Below, piece after piece: positions 1 to 23,759 of a stretch of DNA of 24,104 nt. The notes under the pieces are model-generated. The model saw nothing but the letters and a program-made list of their open reading frames with translations, was not told the origin of the DNA and did no database searches. The translations under genes and the position numbers were made by a program. This DNA comes from a virus. The stretch lies in IMG/VR virus record IMGVR_UViG_3300010158_003822, positions 1 through 24,104 of that record. One strand, given 5' to 3'. Within the stretch, counting starts at the first letter, position 1. The number at the start of each line of letters is the position of its first letter.

Positions 1-198
1 CAATATGCTTGAACCGGTTATGGTACCGGTGGCACTGATCACACCACCTGTCAATACATTACCACCGGTTATGTTTGCTGTGGCTGATACAACCGATCCC
101 AATATGCTTGAACCGGTTATGGTGCCAGTTGCTGATACTAAGCCACCTGTCAATACGTTACCACCGGTTATGTTTGCTGTGGCCGAAATTGTGGACCC
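1..198 (-). repeat. 99-bp direct repeat within tail fibre gene
   Basis: The segment starting at base 1 (caatatgcttgaaccggtta) recurs at base 100 with only a few changes, giving a 99-bp period, or 33 residues (SSILGSVVSATANITGG followed by NVLTGGxxSATGTITG). Shorter relatives of the unit recur up to about base 620. The array continues beyond the window edge. Confidence 0.8.
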
Positions 199-1053
199 TA
201 CAGTAACACCATTCACAGCATTAAGGTTATTGGCACTGAAATTATTGGCTGTATAAATGGCTGTGGCATTTGAACTCAGCGTTTGATCACCAAGTTTTAA
301 TGTGGTTCCACTGAGATAGAGATCTTTCCAGTATTGTCCAGGACCGCCAAGATTGTATGTTGCATTGGCACTGGGCAAAAGGTTGCCGGTTATGTTGCCA
401 GCAATTGACAAATTACCACCAATGTTTACATTGCCTGCGGCACTGATCAGGCCACCTGTTAATATATTGCCACCTGTGATGTTGGCACTTGCACTAACAA
501 CTGAGCCTAGAATACTTGAACCGGTTACGGTTCCAGCGGCAGATAACAATCCACCAGTTAATACGTTACCACCGGTTACGTTACCTGCGGCACTGATCAG
601 GCCACCTGTGAGCAGGTTGCCAGTTGTGGTATTTCCTGTGACACTGAGTGTGGTCAAAACTCCAATATTGCTGGCTGTGACACCGGTCAATTGTGATCCG
701 TTACCGATAAAGTAATTGCCGGTGATGTTGCCTGTGGCACTTACTACCCCGCCAGCTGTGACGTTGTTGTTGGTCGCAACATTGTTGGCATAAACCACAG
801 ACCACACACTTGTGGCATTGCCCAGAGTAAACGTATTGTTGCTGGTTGGTATGAGATTACCACTTGCATTGGGTATAAATCCGCCATAGGGCAAACTATT
901 CCAAGCAGTGACTCCATCACCGTATTTGATCAGGTCAAGATCAGTGTCCAGACCCGGTTCAGCCAAGGCCAATATAGGATTGGCCGCGTACCAATTTGCT
1001 GTGGTATCTCTGCGTAGTTGTATTGTGGTACCAACGACTGGTGGTGCTGGCAT
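1..1053 (-). CDS. Repeat-rich tail fibre protein, partial (C-terminus outside window)
   Basis: The minus frame is open from the ATG at 1053 to the window edge, giving 351 residues without a stop. The first ~75 residues (MPAPPVVGTTIQLRR..., then LAEPGLDTDLDLIKYGDG and PYGG) resemble the N-terminal module of many marine phage fibre proteins, in which a position-and-grid description of the sample is followed by beta-rich repeats. The rest is dominated by Gly/Asn/Thr/Ser repeats of the type ITGGNxLTGGxxSATG, and it contains the GNYFIGNGSQLTG module also seen in the fibre encoded at 3024-5156. A YNLGGPGQYWKDLYLSG segment near residue 235 is typical of intramolecular spacer modules in fibres. The preceding gene's stop lies one base upstream (TAACATG), so translation is probably coupled. 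It probably forms an elongated trimeric beta-structured fibre on the virion. The receptor-binding tip would lie outside the window. The family assignment is firm; the exact position in the tail is inferred. Confidence 0.8.
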   Translation of the reverse strand, partial: MPAPPVVGTTIQLRRDTTANWYAANPILALAEPGLDTDLDLIKYGDGVTAWNSLPYGGFIPNASGNLIPTSNNTFTLGNATSVWSVVYANNVATNNNVTAGGVVSATGNITGNYFIGNGSQLTGVTASNIGVLTTLSVTGNTTTGNLLTGGLISAAGNVTGGNVLTGGLLSAAGTVTGSSILGSVVSASANITGGNILTGGLISAAGNVNIGGNLSIAGNITGNLLPSANATYNLGGPGQYWKDLYLSGTTLKLGDQTLSSNATAIYTANNFSANNLNAVNGVTVGSTISATANITGGNVLTGGLVSATGTITGSSILGSVVSATANITGGNVLTGGVISATGTITGSSIL

Positions 1054-1720: not shown

Positions 1721-2095
1721 TTAATATCGGTCTAAACGGTCGCGTCGTCTTTTTAATAGATCTAACACAAGGCTTGATTCATCCTCGTTACGAACTTCCG
1801 GAGCGTCTGACCCCACTTCATTAGTATCTTCATGGTTGACAAAATTATCAGGATTGTCAGGATCTTGATTGATAATTTGATTGATTACTTCACTTTCCTT
1901 GCCACCCTGTTGCTTGAGCAATTCAAGTTCTTGTTGCAATGGTGGAACCATGACAGGTGCGTCGGGCAATGTTTCGCCAGCAGGTGCTGCCACTGTGGGT
2001 GCTCCACCGCCAGCAGGTATGTTGATCGTGATAGGTATCGTGATAGTTGTGCCGCCGGGTGCAGTATCTTCTCTAATGAATTCTCTAGCTCTCAT
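1721..2095 (-). CDS. Small hypothetical virion-region protein, MRAREFI start
   Basis: This 124-residue protein has an N-terminus MRAREFIRED, followed by a Thr/Ile/Pro-rich low-complexity segment (residues ~14-50), an acidic Asn/Asp-rich middle, and a strongly basic C-terminus (LLKRRRDRLDRY). The ATG overlaps the stop of the upstream gene by four bases (ATGA), so the two are translationally coupled. From memory, the MRAREF- type N-terminus recurs on unrelated proteins of T4-like marine phages and may be a short targeting or maturation tag; this is not verifiable here. No domain is recognised and the function is unknown. Its position inside the fibre/structural block suggests a virion or assembly role. 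Confidence 0.6.
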   Translation of the reverse strand: MRAREFIREDTAPGGTTITIPITINIPAGGGAPTVAAPAGETLPDAPVMVPPLQQELELLKQQGGKESEVINQIINQDPDNPDNFVNHEDTNEVGSDAPEVRNEDESSLVLDLLKRRRDRLDRY

Positions 2096-2667
2096 AGGAT
2101 TCCTGCGGCTGCTTGCAAGGCTCTTGATTCTGGCGTGGGCTTGTGAACTTTTTTGGTCTCTAATCCAGCCGCGGATCTCATGCTGTTTAAATCAGTTTCA
2201 TTCTCAGCACGATAAGCATCAGGAGTGAGTGGAACCAGTCGTGCAAATTCCTGTTCGGACCAGTCATGCTCTTGGCCCTTGTAGTGCATGCGCCAGTTGG
2301 TGGGTTCAAATTCTGTCAGGGTTGATAAATCATCCAGCAATGTTTGTATGTAACGTGGTGCGGCTCTGCGTCTGCGTAGTTCAAGATACACTAGATAGCG
2401 ACTGGGTTTGATTTCGCCAGGTGAACGATCTGCGTCCATCACAAAGTCATAGCCTTTTTCAAACCAGGCCACTAGATCTTTTGCGGCACTCAAATCTCTC
2501 ACAAAAAAGCTCAGCACAATGATGTCATCATCGTCGCCCATTTTTGCCGCAAATTCGTCCACATGAACAGTGGGCTTCATCATGCCCTCTAGGTCTTTGT
2601 ATTGCAAACCTTCAAACAAAGGTTGCCCGGGATTGAATGGGTTCTGAAGTGGTACGTTTGAGCTCAT
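2092..2667 (-). CDS. Conserved T4-like phage structural-region protein, unknown function
   Basis: This 191-residue protein contains a soluble alpha/beta domain: VHVDEFAAKMGDDDDIIVLSFFV (residues ~34-56), then AAKDLVAWFEKGYDFVMDAD and SPGEIKPSRYLVYLELRRR. These blocks look like a protein conserved across marine T4-like myoviruses, remembered as a hypothetical protein next to tail genes; no function can be assigned. The C-terminus is Ala-rich. No Shine-Dalgarno precedes the ATG. Instead a CTAAATA element lies 7 bases upstream (see the promoter entry). The stop overlaps the ATG of the 124-residue gene downstream. It is probably virion-associated, possibly a baseplate or tail protein; this is inference from location only. 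Confidence 0.65.
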   Translation of the reverse strand: MSSNVPLQNPFNPGQPLFEGLQYKDLEGMMKPTVHVDEFAAKMGDDDDIIVLSFFVRDLSAAKDLVAWFEKGYDFVMDADRSPGEIKPSRYLVYLELRRRRAAPRYIQTLLDDLSTLTEFEPTNWRMHYKGQEHDWSEQEFARLVPLTPDAYRAENETDLNSMRSAAGLETKKVHKPTPESRALQAAAGIL

Positions 2668-2697: not shown

Positions 2698-3027
2698 TTA
2701 AATCTTAGGATACTGTGCTTTTACTGCCGCACATGCGGCGTAGTATGCTTCTAAACGACTGTTATCTCCGCGACTGGCCCAGTACATGGCATCAGCAAAA
2801 TCAGTAATGGGAGGATATTGATTTTTTCTTTTGCGTTGATATTCTGTCTGATCAAATTCTTGTTGTAGTCTACCAATTTCGTCCGCAATTTCTTGTTCAG
2901 TTGGCTGTGTCTGATCAGTGTCTATCCATTCTAGATCATCAACCGTGGCACCGCGTAACACCCACTGTGCTCCGGGTCTAAGTGATTGCAATGCTGTGGG
3001 AATGTCGATAATGGGGTTTATTATCAT
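2698..3027 (-). CDS. Putative tail fibre assembly-type protein
   Basis: The gene encodes 109 residues. The start at 3027 was chosen because ACGGAGATAG provides a Shine-Dalgarno 8 bases upstream and because the ATG overlaps the stop of the propeller fibre gene by four bases (ATGA). A longer frame upstream would overlap the fibre gene by 80 bases. The sequence contains SLRPGAQWVLRGATVDDLEWIDTD, then an acidic/glutamine-rich helix EQEIADEIGRLQQEFDQTEYQ, a basic KRKNQYPPITDFADAMYWASRGD segment and a C-terminal YYAACAAVKAQYPK helix. The YPPITDFADAMYW pattern resembles small proteins encoded just after tail fibre genes in many phages (fibre-assembly/XkdW-like). Immediate linkage to a fibre gene supports a chaperone or fibre-attachment role. 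That function is inferred, not demonstrated. Confidence 0.6.
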   Translation of the reverse strand: MIINPIIDIPTALQSLRPGAQWVLRGATVDDLEWIDTDQTQPTEQEIADEIGRLQQEFDQTEYQRKRKNQYPPITDFADAMYWASRGDNSRLEAYYAACAAVKAQYPKI

Positions 3028-5156
3028 GGTGCTATCTCCGTAATAGTAATGGTTGAAGTTATTCCGTAGCCAGCATAATTTACAGATATTGTGCCAGCAC
3101 TCCATGACGCTACTAACATGTTATAAGTTATACTGGTTCCTGCGGCCTGACCAGGACTGTCTAGGTATTCTCGAACCACAGTCCAACTGTTGGTACCAGC
3201 GCCATTGGCACTTCCTGCCCAGCTATCACCTGCGGCACCATCGACACCTACTAATCTGGTGGTTGTGGCACTTATGGTTCTGCTCATGCCTATGTTCAGA
3301 CCACCCGAAGCAGAAGCATATCCTTGTGCCACAAACTGAACAAGAAATTTACTATTTGCTATTTTTGATGTAATTGCCAAAGTGCCGCCAGTACAGGCGG
3401 TATAAGTCTGAATGGCTGTTATTGCGGTAGTATTGCCAAAACTTTTAAATCCAATCTGTATCGGAGTACCACTAGCTGAGATTACACCACTGAGCAGTAA
3501 ATTTCCACCAGTAATGTTGCCAGTGCCAAATGTTCCTGTCCCTGCAGAGAAATTATTAATACTAAACATCGAAACTGTGGTGCCGCCATAATTTGCCACA
3601 TACACAAATCTACCAGTTGGGTCAACAGCTACGCCGTGTGGATTAGCTCCTGTGGCAACAGCAGTGGTTATGCTGGTCAATGCACCGGTTGACTGATTGA
3701 TGCTGTACATTGAAACTGTGCCGCCGGTATAATTTGACACATACACAAATCTACCAGTTGGGTCAACAGCTACGTCGTTTGGTGCCACTCCTGTGGCAAC
3801 AGCAGTGGTTATGCTGGTCAATGCACCAGTTGACTGATTGATGCTGTACATTGAAACTGTGGCGCTGTTATAATTTGGCACATACACAAATCTACCAGTT
3901 GGGTCAACAGCTACGCCGTTTGGACCAGATTCCGTGGCAACAGCAGTGGTTATGCTGGTCAATGCACCGGTTGACTGATCGATGCTGTACATTGAAACTG
4001 TGGTGCCGAAATAATTTGCCACATACACAAATCTACCAGTTGGGTCAACAGCTACGCTGATTGGATAAGATCCCGCGGCAACAGCAGTGGTTATGCTGGT
4101 CAATGCACCGGTTGACTGATTGATGCTGTACATTGAAACTGTGCCGCCGGTATAATTTGCCACATACACAAATCTACCAGTTGGGTCAACAGCTACGCTG
4201 ATTGGACCAGTTCCTGTGGCAACAGCAGTGGTTATGCTGGTCAATGCACCAGTTGACTGATTGATGCTGTACATCGAAACTGTGGCGCTGCCATAATTTG
4301 CCACATACACAAATCTACCAGTTGGGTCAACAGCTATGCCTTCTGGACTAGATCCTGACGCAATCGCGGTGGTTATGCTAGTCAATTCACCGGTTGACTG
4401 ATTGATGCTGTACATTGAAACTGTGGCGTCGAACAAATTTGGCACATACACAAATCTACCAGTTGGGTCAACAGCTACGTCGTATGGTCCGGCTCCTGTG
4501 GCAACAGCAGTGGTTATGCTGGTCAATTCACCGGTTCCTTTATATACTATTCCTCGAGGAGCTACCACTTGATACGGTGTTTTAACAAACGACGTACTTA
4601 ACAATGCATTTCCAGTTATGGTTCCAGTTGCACTCACAAGTCCGTTGGTTAAGATATTACCACCGGTTATGTTACCCGTACTACTGACTGGATTAGAGCC
4701 CAAGGCAGCCAAATTAGCCACTACATTGGCGTTGCCATATATGGCAATACCAGTCAATTGTGATCCATTTCCAAGAAAATAATTGCCAGACACATTGCCA
4801 GTTGCACTCACAAGTCCAACTGTTAATATATTACCACCAGTTACGTTTGCAGTGGCCGAAACACGTCCGGCAGTTAGTAAATTTCCAACTGTGGTGTTGC
4901 CTGCAATTACCGCGGTATTGCTGACACTGTCAAATGTAAATCCTGCACTGGCACCTGCGTTGCCACTGTTGTTGTACAACACATAGGTGTTGGCTCCAGG
5001 AGCCGCTAAATTACCTGTAATATTACCAATAATGTTGCCCACAAAAAATGCGGAAGTAACAATATTGCCTGCAGAACTATACACACCCAAGCTGTTTTTT
5101 AACAGGGCGTTGCCGCTTAAACTGTTTAGTCTATCGTTGGTTGTGAATCCAGCCAT
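3024..5156 (-). CDS. Tail fibre with embedded seven-bladed beta-propeller
   Basis: This 710-residue protein falls into three parts. Residues 1-207 are fibre-type sequence (SGNALLKNSLGVYS, GNYFLGNGSQLTG, GNITGGNILTNGLVSATG). Residues ~208-536 hold seven tandem 47-residue repeats, each with VDPTGRFVYV and TVSMYSI(N/D)QSTGxLTSITT. They match the YVTN/lactonase-type (PF10282-like) propeller blade, and seven blades are the right number for a closed ring. Residues ~537-710 return to fibre sequence (GNITGGNLLLSGVISASG), followed by a C-terminal domain with ITSKIANSKFLVQF, TVVREYLDSPGQ and ITITEIAP, a form common at the receptor-binding tips of marine phage fibres. The propeller is therefore a cassette inside a fibre. 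It lacks evidence of catalysis and is more likely a binding head for a host surface glycan or protein. An AAGG Shine-Dalgarno precedes the ATG. Confidence 0.85.
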   Translation of the reverse strand: MAGFTTNDRLNSLSGNALLKNSLGVYSSAGNIVTSAFFVGNIIGNITGNLAAPGANTYVLYNNSGNAGASAGFTFDSVSNTAVIAGNTTVGNLLTAGRVSATANVTGGNILTVGLVSATGNVSGNYFLGNGSQLTGIAIYGNANVVANLAALGSNPVSSTGNITGGNILTNGLVSATGTITGNALLSTSFVKTPYQVVAPRGIVYKGTGELTSITTAVATGAGPYDVAVDPTGRFVYVPNLFDATVSMYSINQSTGELTSITTAIASGSSPEGIAVDPTGRFVYVANYGSATVSMYSINQSTGALTSITTAVATGTGPISVAVDPTGRFVYVANYTGGTVSMYSINQSTGALTSITTAVAAGSYPISVAVDPTGRFVYVANYFGTTVSMYSIDQSTGALTSITTAVATESGPNGVAVDPTGRFVYVPNYNSATVSMYSINQSTGALTSITTAVATGVAPNDVAVDPTGRFVYVSNYTGGTVSMYSINQSTGALTSITTAVATGANPHGVAVDPTGRFVYVANYGGTTVSMFSINNFSAGTGTFGTGNITGGNLLLSGVISASGTPIQIGFKSFGNTTAITAIQTYTACTGGTLAITSKIANSKFLVQFVAQGYASASGGLNIGMSRTISATTTRLVGVDGAAGDSWAGSANGAGTNSWTVVREYLDSPGQAAGTSITYNMLVASWSAGTISVNYAGYGITSTITITEIAP
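3549..4535 (-). repeat. Seven tandem 141-bp repeats (propeller blades)
   Basis: Seven head-to-tail copies of 141 bp each encode one 47-residue blade. For example, taccagttgggtcaacagct starts at 3611 and again at 3752. The framework is almost invariant in DNA. Differences concentrate in two short patches per copy: the codons before and after the Pro of xxPxx, and three codons following AAT TAT. The near identity implies recent tandem amplification or gene conversion. It also means blade number could be mis-assembled from short reads. Confidence 0.95.
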
Positions 5157-5177: not shown

Positions 5178-5795
5178 TTACACAGCCGGTCCGGGCGAGG
5201 CACCAGGTTGCTGTTCGAGTGATTGCTGGGCCTGTTGTGCTTGTGCATCACTTTGATTTTCTTCTCGGTCTAGATCCTGCTCATAGGCTTGATCCAGTTC
5301 GTCAAGATCAATGTCTTGATCTTCCATCTCGATTGATCCTGTACGTATGTCATTCATCAAGGCCTTGGGCATGGTGATTGCAACCAACCATACTTCTTGA
5401 ACCATGAGCTTGGCTTTTTTGGTACCAGGTCGATAATCACTAGGATCTGTAATTTTAACGGGAATTTTTATTTTTTGTTTTTTGTACTCAACTTCGCAAT
5501 CAAATGCCAGCAATCTGCGTCCGCCTCTGGGATCGGGCATCATTTTCTCGGGCCACATAAAGGTACAAGTCACACGGTACTTGCCAATTTCCGGCCCGTC
5601 AACCAATTCACCAATTTCCCAGTTTTTAAATGCGTAGATATCAACTTCGTCCAGCACACGCTCAAAGTCCAGTAACGTGGTTAGACTTCCTTCGCTCATG
5701 TAGATGTCGCGAATGTTGTCGGCCACTTGCCAATAATCCGTGTGATCTTTGAAAAGATCCCGATCGCGGACGCCGAATTTGTTATGTGTTTGCAT
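5178..5795 (-). CDS. Conserved T4-like phage protein, probable virion component
   Basis: This 205-residue soluble protein begins MQTHNKFGVRDRDLFKDHTDYWQVADNIRDIYMS. It has a mixed alpha/beta core with KYRVTCTFMWPEKMMPDPRGGRRLLAFDCEVEY and MVQEVWLVAITMPKALMNDIRTG, and an acidic, glutamine-rich tail from about residue 160 that ends PGASPGPAV. The overall shape looks like a protein conserved in marine T4-like phages, but I cannot name it. A long, Glu/Gln-rich C-terminal tail could be a disordered interaction segment. There is no Shine-Dalgarno; GTAAATA lies 7 bases before the ATG. It is the first gene of the minus-strand fibre block and divergent from phoH. Function is unknown; structural or assembly role is inferred from location. 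Confidence 0.6.
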   Translation of the reverse strand: MQTHNKFGVRDRDLFKDHTDYWQVADNIRDIYMSEGSLTTLLDFERVLDEVDIYAFKNWEIGELVDGPEIGKYRVTCTFMWPEKMMPDPRGGRRLLAFDCEVEYKKQKIKIPVKITDPSDYRPGTKKAKLMVQEVWLVAITMPKALMNDIRTGSIEMEDQDIDLDELDQAYEQDLDREENQSDAQAQQAQQSLEQQPGASPGPAV

Positions 5796-18593: not shown

Positions 18594-19324
18594 ATTTTTC
18601 CTTGTGTATTAATTGTATTTACAAATTCTTTTGCTAGATTATAATTAGCACTTGACCCACAATGCATTAAATCTCTAGCATTGCCAATATCCCAAAAATT
18701 GTCGAATAAGTTATAATAAAATGGTACATTATGTTTGTTGCAAATATTTTGCATTGCTGATAAATTTTTACGCCTATTTAATTCGCTGTTTTGATCATGC
18801 AACAAGTATTGTTGTTGATATTTTTTCAACCAATGTGGCACATCACACTGTGGTAAAATACTTAACCAATTGCTGGAGGTGGCAGCAAAAATCTCATACC
18901 TAGAAATGCTAGGAACAGCACATGCTACAAATTGAATATTAAGATGTTCAATCCAATATTCAAGAAATCGGTAACAGGTATCTAGTGCCGCGCCGCCACT
19001 TCCAAGATTCCAAATTTTTTGTCCCAACATTTTTTCTAATTGTTTAGGCCATGTATCATCAGCGTGAATTCCTATACCCTGCGTAAGACTACATCCTAGT
19101 GCCAAACCAGCAGGTTGTTGATCAAATTCATCATCTCTAAATCCTTCGCTATTGAATTTATAAATTATGTCAGTGCCAATCCACCCTAGATTTTTGAGTC
19201 TTTCATAGGTTGTTTTGTCCGCACAGTTTGTTTTAAAATTTTGCTCAGTGTCTCCATGTCCACTCCATTTTTGAGTAGTTGATGCATAAATTTGATTGAT
19301 ATGATACGGGCCAGTATAAGGCAT
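18590..19324 (-). CDS. SGNH/GDSL-like hydrolase
   Basis: In this 244-residue protein, block I is [12 protein letters not shown] with candidate nucleophile Ser79. Block II is [13 protein letters not shown] (Gly108). Block V is DLMHCG with the Asp218-x-x-His221 pair. This order fits an SGNH hydrolase, and phage members may act as esterases, deacetylases or lipases on cell-surface sugars. No signal peptide or membrane segment is seen, so it may act inside the cell or be released on lysis. The DNA is AT-rich. It sits between the SOD and ErpA genes with single-base and four-base overlaps (TAATG and ATGA). Substrate is unknown; an unrelated SGNH-fold protein remains possible. Confidence 0.7.
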
Positions 19325-19881
19325 TATAGTCTTTCGTTACAAACATCCCAATCAATAATTTTCCAAATGTTGTCTAAGTATTTTTCTTTATCCCACTGGT
19401 AATCCAAACTCCAGGCATGCTCCCACCAGTCTATTAAACAACAGATGTCTGTGCGAACAGCATGATTGGCAATGGTCTTGATCGCTCCCGACGTGCTCAA
19501 ATAAACCCAACCTGATCCTTGGATCTTCATGGCAGTTTCTTTCACAGCTTCTTTAAAGTCTTCATAGGTTTCAAAATGCTCTTCTATCAACGCAAGTACA
19601 GCACCACGTGGTCGGTTGGCACCCTTGGGAGCCCGAAGCTGAGGGAAAAATTTATTGTGTAGAAAACTGCCAGCACGATTAAAATCCGCATTGCCTTCTC
19701 CTGCATTGTAACGTTTGGCGTAACCCCGGGCCAAATGTCCATAATGATATTCCAAACTTTCTTTACTCAACACAGGCTCAAGGTCTCGCTCACCGTAGGG
19801 TAAAGGGGTGGTTTCCAGTTTAGCCGGTCGGGTGCTGGCTTCGATAATCTGCATGTAATCAGTGATAGCAACGTGGTTCAT
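19324..19881 (-). CDS. sodB: Fe/Mn superoxide dismutase
   Basis: This 185-residue superoxide dismutase has metal ligands visible as the first His of LEYHYGHLARGY, the His of GSFLHNKFFP, and Asp and His of LIDWWEHAW. The GSGWVYL segment and the ending YLDNIWKIIDWDVCNERL are typical of the family. Superoxide is converted to peroxide and oxygen. I use the ATG at 19881 because the conserved start is MNHVAITDYMQ; the frame continues upstream for 22 residues but would overlap the IF-1 stop. It lies 7 bases after the IF-1 stop with AGGA inside the IF-1 end. Iron versus manganese use cannot be decided from sequence. It is a rarely seen phage gene and is linked here to Fe-S and translation genes. Confidence 0.88.
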   Translation of the reverse strand: MNHVAITDYMQIIEASTRPAKLETTPLPYGERDLEPVLSKESLEYHYGHLARGYAKRYNAGEGNADFNRAGSFLHNKFFPQLRAPKGANRPRGAVLALIEEHFETYEDFKEAVKETAMKIQGSGWVYLSTSGAIKTIANHAVRTDICCLIDWWEHAWSLDYQWDKEKYLDNIWKIIDWDVCNERL

Positions 19882-19888
19882 ATTGTAT

Positions 19889-20107
19889 TTATTTCCTACG
19901 GGTAATACGTCCCTTAGTGAGATCGTATGGTGAAAATTCCATTTCAACTCTATCCCCCAGCAGTACTTTGATGTTGTTCTTGCGCATACGTCCGCTCAAG
20001 TGCGCCACAACCAAATTTTCAATTTTGTCTAGTTTTACCCGGAACATGGCGGCTGGTAAAACTTCTTCTACCCTGCCTTCCATGTTGATAACATCTTCTT
20101 TTGTCAT
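19889..20107 (-). CDS. infA: Translation initiation factor IF-1
   Basis: This 72-residue protein reads [24 protein letters not shown], with [40 protein letters not shown] at the end. It follows bacterial IF-1 through the OB fold (KED.IEM.G.V.E.LP..MFRV, AHISGKMRKN.I.IL.GD.V, SPYDL.KGRI). It should bind the ribosomal A site with IF-2. Length matches bacterial IF-1 (72). ATG 20107 fits the family start; a TTG two codons upstream is less likely. It is coupled to a DUF2693-like gene 6 bases upstream and to SOD 7 bases downstream. Encoding IF-1 in a phage is unusual. Confidence 0.92.
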
Positions 20108-20113
20108 AAGCAA

Positions 20114-23417: not shown

Positions 23418-23446
23418 AGTATATTATGATTCTTTGCCGGTGTCAA
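23418..23446 (-). promoter_or_regulatory. Sigma70 promoter of SleB-type lysis gene
   Basis: A consensus TTGACA (23441-23446), a 17-base spacer and TATACT (23418-23423) lie on the minus strand. The -35 and spacer fall inside the last codons of the ferredoxin gene. A 77-base leader leads to the ATG at 23341. A second TATAAT follows shortly after the -10. Confidence 0.75.
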
Positions 23447-23759
23447 ACAAATGTCGTTTTTGTACCACGGTGCCCCAATGTTCAGCATCAGGCAATGCTG
23501 GTTTCTTTTTGGTTATCACTTTCCACAATCTAGAAAAATCAACATTAATTTGGATAAAATCACGCTGATCTTCCGGTACATCATCTTCTGTATAAATGGC
23601 ATTCACCGGGCATTCAGGAATACACACTGCACAATCGATACATTCGTCGGGATTGATTACAAGAAAATTTGGACCTTCATAAAAGCAATCCACTGGGCAA
23701 ACATCTACACAATCAGTATGCTTACACTTTATACAAGATTCAGTTACAACATGGGTCAT
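23424..23759 (-). CDS. fdxA: 7Fe ferredoxin (FdxA-like)
   Basis: This 111-residue ferredoxin closely follows the 106-residue Azotobacter ferredoxin I form: [21 protein letters not shown], then [15 protein letters not shown]. Cysteines are at 9, 12, 17, 21, 25, 40, 43, 46 and 50, the same spacing as in the seven-iron protein, with a [3Fe-4S] set (9, 17, 50) and a [4Fe-4S] set (21, 40, 43, 46). Acidic and basic C-terminal parts match FdxA as well. It transfers low-potential electrons and has been tied to oxidative-stress responses. It overlaps NadE by four bases (ATGG/stop) and so is coupled to it. A phage copy is unusual. Confidence 0.9.

Follow-up and report, generated by a model that had tools for sequence, protein, structure and literature searches.

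Near-identical propeller blades of a probable phage tail fibre differ at one modelled face, most likely through selection and blade exchange

The fibre gene of the phage analyzed here quite likely encodes a receptor-binding propeller that is shared horizontally and has been diversified by selection on one face together with exchange of blades, as in the HNWD proteins of fungi. The initial annotation had read the C-ending codons at the most variable blade positions as what adenine-specific mutagenesis by a diversity-generating retroelement (DGR) would leave, while allowing that strong selection on one face of the propeller plus gene conversion could give the same result. The second of these readings fits what was found, i.e., the variable sites lie on one face of the modelled propeller, the same sites vary in phages and bacteria, and segments are shared between blades.

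The window, i.e., the whole stretch of DNA that was analyzed, is the entire 24,104-base virus record, and the features of the fibre gene and its flanks are collected in Table 1. The blades are arranged head-to-tail and span approximately residues 206 to 534 of the protein. Per Pfam scan, the propeller matches PF10282 (Lactonase) with an E-value of 1e-82. An AlphaFold2 model of the propeller, generated from 18 viral arrays, has a mean pLDDT of 94.9 and a pTM of 0.92 and retrieved Foldseek matches to 1l0q, 1ri6, and other propellers. Annotation as a 6-phosphogluconolactonase was rejected, as the score of 129.4 bits is far under the NCBIfam equivalog cut-off of 370, which makes an enzyme role unlikely; the propeller is probably a YVTN/lactonase-type binding surface and no enzyme. 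Residues 545-710 of the fibre protein have no match in L018, the record carrying the sister array. The gene product as a whole is probably a tail-fibre protein tipped by the propeller. No match to the PHROG tail-fibre families was retrieved for the window protein, L018, or L005, and 4/6 related propeller proteins do match such families.

Table 1. Coordinates of the fibre gene, its parts, and the adjoining genes in the window.
Feature	Coordinates	Strand	Basis or remark
Fibre gene, 710 aa	3024..5156	(-)	ORF; N-terminal GNITGGN-type repeats, seven-bladed propeller, and C-terminal domain; probable tail fibre
Seven-blade array, 141 nt (47 codons) per blade	3555..4541	(-)	Repeat count; AlphaFold2 model
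Blade 1	4401..4541	(-)	Array register
Blade 2	4260..4400	(-)	Carries the sole non-C codon of the five sites (GAA, site 20)
Blade 3	4119..4259	(-)	Array register
Blade 4	3978..4118	(-)	Array register
Blade 5	3837..3977	(-)	Array register
Blade 6	3696..3836	(-)	Array register
Blade 7	3555..3695	(-)	Array register
N-terminal part, GNITGGN(I/L)L-type repeats	4542..5156	(-)	Translation; similar repeats present in L018
C-terminal domain	3024..3554	(-)	Remainder of ORF 3' of array
Virion structural gene adjoining the fibre gene	5178..5795	(-)	PHROG 12928
Virion structural gene on the other side of the fibre gene	2092..2667	(-)	PHROG 13138

The two virion structural genes on either side of the fibre gene are adjacent in relatives, where the PHROG 13138 gene directly follows the PHROG 12928 gene (7/7 relatives examined), and a lactonase propeller was found in 0/34 structural-gene relatives, these being 34 of 80 loci linked to the window by the structural gene next to the fibre gene, at 29.8 to 349 kb. 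Taken together, this makes the fibre gene most likely an accessory insertion. The propeller regions of the window and L018 are 89% identical at the nucleotide level over 1.18 kb. Besides the fibre gene, only a 303 aa gene among the window genes tested has a match in L018, and there the propeller is fused behind the relative of this gene. The propeller is an accessory cassette common to otherwise dissimilar phages.

Propellers of approximately seven blades each are also found in tandem within phage proteins, two in L010 (3843-6680) and L023 (6407-8545) and three in L005 (4855-8349). At the edge of the window record (1-820, minus strand), there are more GNITGGN(I/V)L-type repeats, which resemble those of the fibre gene. 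Elsewhere in the window, also on the minus strand, are genes for an Fe/Mn superoxide dismutase (19324-19947), an IF-1-like translation factor (19889-20113), an iron-sulphur assembly protein (PF01521; 18273-18593), and a 4Fe-4S ferredoxin (23424-23759), which form a notable host-like set in a phage. The minus strand further encodes a radical SAM protein (PF04055; 7987-8994), whose subfamily matches, including one to a viperin model, are sub-threshold, and a cell wall hydrolase (PF07486; 22772-23341), which is likely an endolysin.

With blade codons numbered 1-47, a codon was counted as variable when at least three residues occurred among the seven window blades. Nine codons are strongly variable in the window array (15, 17, 18, 20, 21, 34, 37, 38, and 39). 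Variation had at first been described as confined to two patches, and this stands in part: 19 of the 41 variable nucleotide columns fall within the eight patch codons (17, 18, 20, 21, and 36-39), but the remaining 22 lie elsewhere, 11 of them at third positions. Codon 36, which had been assigned to the framework, is variable and T-ending in the L018 sister array. Blades 3 and 6 have no framework differences at all, but 4/8 hot codons differ between them.

The same sites vary in other propellers. Averaged over 20 phage arrays (16 records), the top ten columns by variability are 20, 36, 18, 37, 38, 39, 17, 21, 15, and 34. The ranking in 88 bacterial blade sets from 79 loci, which comprise 6-15 blade rows per ORF and are in some cases mis-registered at the array edge, begins with 20, 36, 18, 37, and 17, and columns 8, 14, and 9 likewise rank high there. 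Site variability in the window correlates with that in other phages (Spearman rho 0.69) and in bacteria (0.52), and the phages correlate with the bacteria at 0.85. Near-duplicates (L001, L002, L011, L016, L017, L019, L021, L022, and L024) and arrays with fewer than six blades (L004 and L026) were dropped before arrays were counted; the L012 and L015 sets hold one and two blade rows, respectively, beyond the contiguous seven.

In the AlphaFold2 model, a blade has strand A at 19-24, B at 30-35, C at 40-46, and D at 6-8, all in blade numbering. The variable sites fall at the D-A end and in the B-C loop of the modelled propeller, and the window blades show next to no differences in the A-B loop (25-29) or the C-D turn. 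By the usual propeller convention, the D-A and B-C loops form the top face, and the A-B loop and C-D turn belong to the opposite one. With faces assigned from the strand list of the model, the variable codons map to one predicted face of the propeller, the top face.

Change at these sites has been fast relative to the framework. Within the window array, pN at the five hot codons (20, 21, 37, 38, and 39) is 0.50 vs. a framework pS of 0.12, and between window and L018 blades at equal position the corresponding values are 0.35 and 0.13. When hot pN is regressed on framework pS, the intercept at zero framework divergence is 0.40 for the 20 phage arrays and 0.41 for the 88 bacterial ones, with intercepts for framework pN in the matching regression of -0.01 and 0.05, respectively. 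In the 13 phage blade pairs whose frameworks diverge by no more than 2% (the window array supplies ten of these pairs), 0.66 of hot codons differ, which is about equal to the difference in pairs at 20% framework divergence. Hot codons that are saturated between near-identical frameworks indicate that the face diversifies before the framework drifts. Hot pN exceeds framework pS in 12/20 phage and 29/88 bacterial arrays; so partial an excess is expected once pS saturates, yet it is no proof in old arrays.

The framework itself appears to be of different ages within one blade, as judged from synonymous change. In the window array, pS is 0.00 in codons 22-33 and 40-41, 0.17 in codons 3-16, and 0.57 in codons 42-46, and there are almost no synonymous differences in codons 19-41 and many in the blade arms. 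With a core pS of 0.00 beside a hot pN of 0.50, selection alone would need a very large speed-up, which counts against the explanation that we favour.

At the five hot sites, the reported predominance of C-ending codons was confirmed (34/35, the exception being GAA at site 20 of blade 2), as was the concentration of change on the first two bases: all ten first and second positions of these sites vary, whereas just two of the 23 third positions across codons 19-41 do (Fisher p = 7e-7 for first and second vs. third positions). As a general rule of variable sites, however, NNC does not hold, since C ends only 35/63 codons at the nine variable sites; other third bases in the window array are mostly T at 17 and 18 and always A at 34. 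Given that the variable codons 15, 17, 18, and 34 are mostly A- or T-ending, the five NNC sites are a chosen subset. The L018 array has C in 33/35 codons at the five sites, and its columns mostly keep the third base of the window (C at 20, 21, and 37-39; T at 17, 18, and 36; A at 34). The same five columns are T-ending in 27/35 codons of L008, T-ending in 20/35 and A-ending in 10/35 of L010a, and T-ending in 18/40 and A-ending in 13/40 of L012. Because similar blades of other phages mostly have T or A there, NNC among phage arrays is a trait of one cassette lineage.

Several GC-rich bacterial arrays are also mostly C-ending at the hot sites, e.g., L074 (31/33), and in such arrays the other pyrimidine-ending codons are mostly C-ending too. 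Over 108 arrays, the C share at hot sites compared to the rest differs by a mean of +0.07 and is positive in 79, an excess too small to account for 34/35. C-ending third positions vary in 1/5 hot vs. 6/9 framework columns of the window, and in 3/5 vs. 7/9 when L018 is added; with so few C-ending columns, this is no demonstration that the hot third bases are special. Residues R, P, L, V, or C occur in 1/67 NNC codons vs. 5/16 expected if unselected (p = 7.5e-10).

That a DGR mutates AAC codons by copying an adenine-rich template into the array is, in our view, scarcely credible here. The NNC endings of the hot codons in both the window and L018 are in its favour, and so is the fact that A is found in some window or L018 blade at all ten hot first and second positions. 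Nevertheless, when each blade is taken as the template, A makes up 0.22-0.38 of the differing bases, compared to an A content of 0.25-0.28, whereas in the BPP-1 control 18/22 differences between template and target fall on template adenines, and 18/25 adenines differ. In the window array, 28 adenine columns are invariant and 15/41 variable columns hold A in no blade. Fourfold-degenerate columns vary in 2/7 cases for A, 3/9 for T, 3/4 for C, and 0/2 for G, i.e., synonymous adenines in the array are no more variable than other bases. The restriction of third-base C, among phage arrays, to one cassette lineage likewise speaks against a DGR.

A second blade copy that could act as a template repeat was not found outside the array in a blade search of the 24,104-base record. 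RVT_1, which would mark a reverse transcriptase, is missing from the window in a search of the whole record, an incomplete genome. It is absent from all 59 viral records searched, each of which may be a genome fragment (the window, two sister records, 22 other blade-bearing records, and the 34 structural-gene relatives). The identical search detected the reverse transcriptase of BPP-1 (record AY029185) at 9e-19 as a positive control. Reverse transcriptases are present in 11/19 bacterial genomes searched, counted per genome irrespective of array location. Where these traits were tested, then, the NNC pattern comes with no adenine bias, second blade copy, or reverse transcriptase, and the DGR origin put forward for it was not borne out.

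Sequence segments are shared between blades, both within the window array and with L018. Every base of codons 17-21 in window blade 1 recurs in L018 blade 4, codons 36-39 are the same in window blades 3 and 6, and a five-codon block (11-15) is common to window blade 2 (W2) and L018 blades 1 (L1) and 3 (L3). A PHI-type recombination test gave p = 0.001 (width 3) for the L018 blades and p = 0.37 for the window blades alone. Comparisons between near-identical records, which had little power, gave no difference over the shared stretches of L018, L024, and L019 and none over at least 4.2 kb for L008/L011 and L008/L022. The pair L008/L017 has 17 differences, all outside the array. The pair L010/L016 has 47, and 37 of these fall within a blade at the L016 contig end, where the best L010 blade match is no more than 87%; these 37 differences may be an assembly error. 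A strongly divergent block separates L011 (4872-5282) from L022 approximately 2.7 kb past the propeller gene, in records that are otherwise identical or nearly so, and is perhaps another variable gene.

We propose that the blades were amplified from one ancestral blade with C-ending codons at 20, 21, 37, 38, and 39. The D-A and B-C loops have since changed much faster than neutral sites, and the driver would most likely be diversifying selection acting on receptor recognition. Recombination, both among blades and across phages, would be the process that reshuffles the patches and homogenises the framework, with the shared segments as its visible trace. The third bases may have been retained from the ancestor because most changes at the third base of NNC codons would be silent or yield disfavoured residues and because too little time has passed. 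Inheritance from a single ancestral blade can leave an NNC pattern that mimics that of DGR mutagenesis.

Three further explanations were weighed. That the array is an assembly artefact, in which short reads of many blades or strains were merged, is very unlikely. The longest exact in-register repeat of 83 nt would allow it, and the L016 contig end seems inconsistent with L010, but usual sequencing read lengths exceed 83 nt, most complete phage arrays have seven blades or near a multiple of this, and the L018, L024, and L019 records agree over their shared stretches. Relaxed constraint alone, with loops drifting neutrally, is an exceedingly improbable account; loops generally tolerate change, but hot pN in the window is four times framework pS, and hot pN also exceeds pS in the youngest phage and bacterial arrays. 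An RT-independent process that targets the patches, e.g., short-tract templated exchange, would mean that the diversity is produced and not merely selected, and we hold this to be unlikely. It would agree with a hot-codon difference that is as large in the 13 closest phage pairs as in far older ones, with the intercepts at zero framework divergence, and with patch haplotypes that recur in different blade contexts. Against it, ten of the 13 close pairs come from a single array, residue preferences are site-specific, and L008 blades 2 and 4 match completely, even in their hot codons, which argues against a constantly active mutator. In addition, excerpts of PMC1805685 explain a very similar pattern in HNWD proteins by concerted evolution and positive selection. 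Selection on one face combined with blade exchange remains our preferred explanation.

A broader idea, to which we give little weight, is that phage and bacterial YVTN/lactonase propellers have in common a conserved RT-free scheme, in which each blade has two short patches that undergo variation or swapping via the identical core between them. If this were true, the variable face of a new array would reach saturation before its framework DNA ceased to be identical, and phages would gain a DGR-free means of varying a recognition surface on a fixed, repeated scaffold. As variation falls on the same sites in propellers of bacteria, blade diversification before framework drift can be tested on many arrays.

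Among known systems, bacterial and archaeal lactonase/YVTN propellers (PF10282; PDB 1l0q and 1ri6) share the fold and the blade motif with the phage propeller, which, unlike them, is fused to phage repeats and falls under the 6-phosphogluconolactonase cut-off. Highly repetitive propellers (excerpts of PMC9218822; see also PMC6805158) are similar in their amplification from a single blade, and they include Lactonase-like families and count viruses among their taxa; such propellers arise continually from single blades, per the excerpts of PMC9218822, which make no mention of hypervariable, positive selection, concerted, gene conversion, recombination, or phage. DGR-diversified receptor-binding proteins of phages, such as BPP-1 Mtd and the Tentaclins (excerpts of PMC10743442), likewise combine hypervariable codons and a fixed scaffold in an attachment protein, but for the phage propeller neither a reverse transcriptase nor a template repeat nor a bias towards adenine was detected. 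In open-licence papers, we found no phage propeller with comparable variation.

The phage protein is not an HNWD protein proper, a candidate rejected because the Pfam scan detects a lactonase propeller but none of the HET, NACHT, and WD40 entries. HNWD proteins (het-d/het-e of Podospora anserina) carry WD40 blades of variable repeat number in a fungal NLR that acts in self/non-self recognition, whereas the phage has YVTN/lactonase blades, usually seven, with two patches of approximately eight codons. According to excerpts of PMC1805685, the WD40 blades of HNWD proteins are near-identical and evolve in concert, and four codons on the interaction surface are under positive selection. The phage array similarly has an excess of nonsynonymous change at codons of the predicted interaction face on a homogeneous framework. 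As in the HNWD proteins described in excerpts of PMC1805685 and PMC2873952, alike blades with a few diversified surface codons would have been reshuffled with no retroelement involved.
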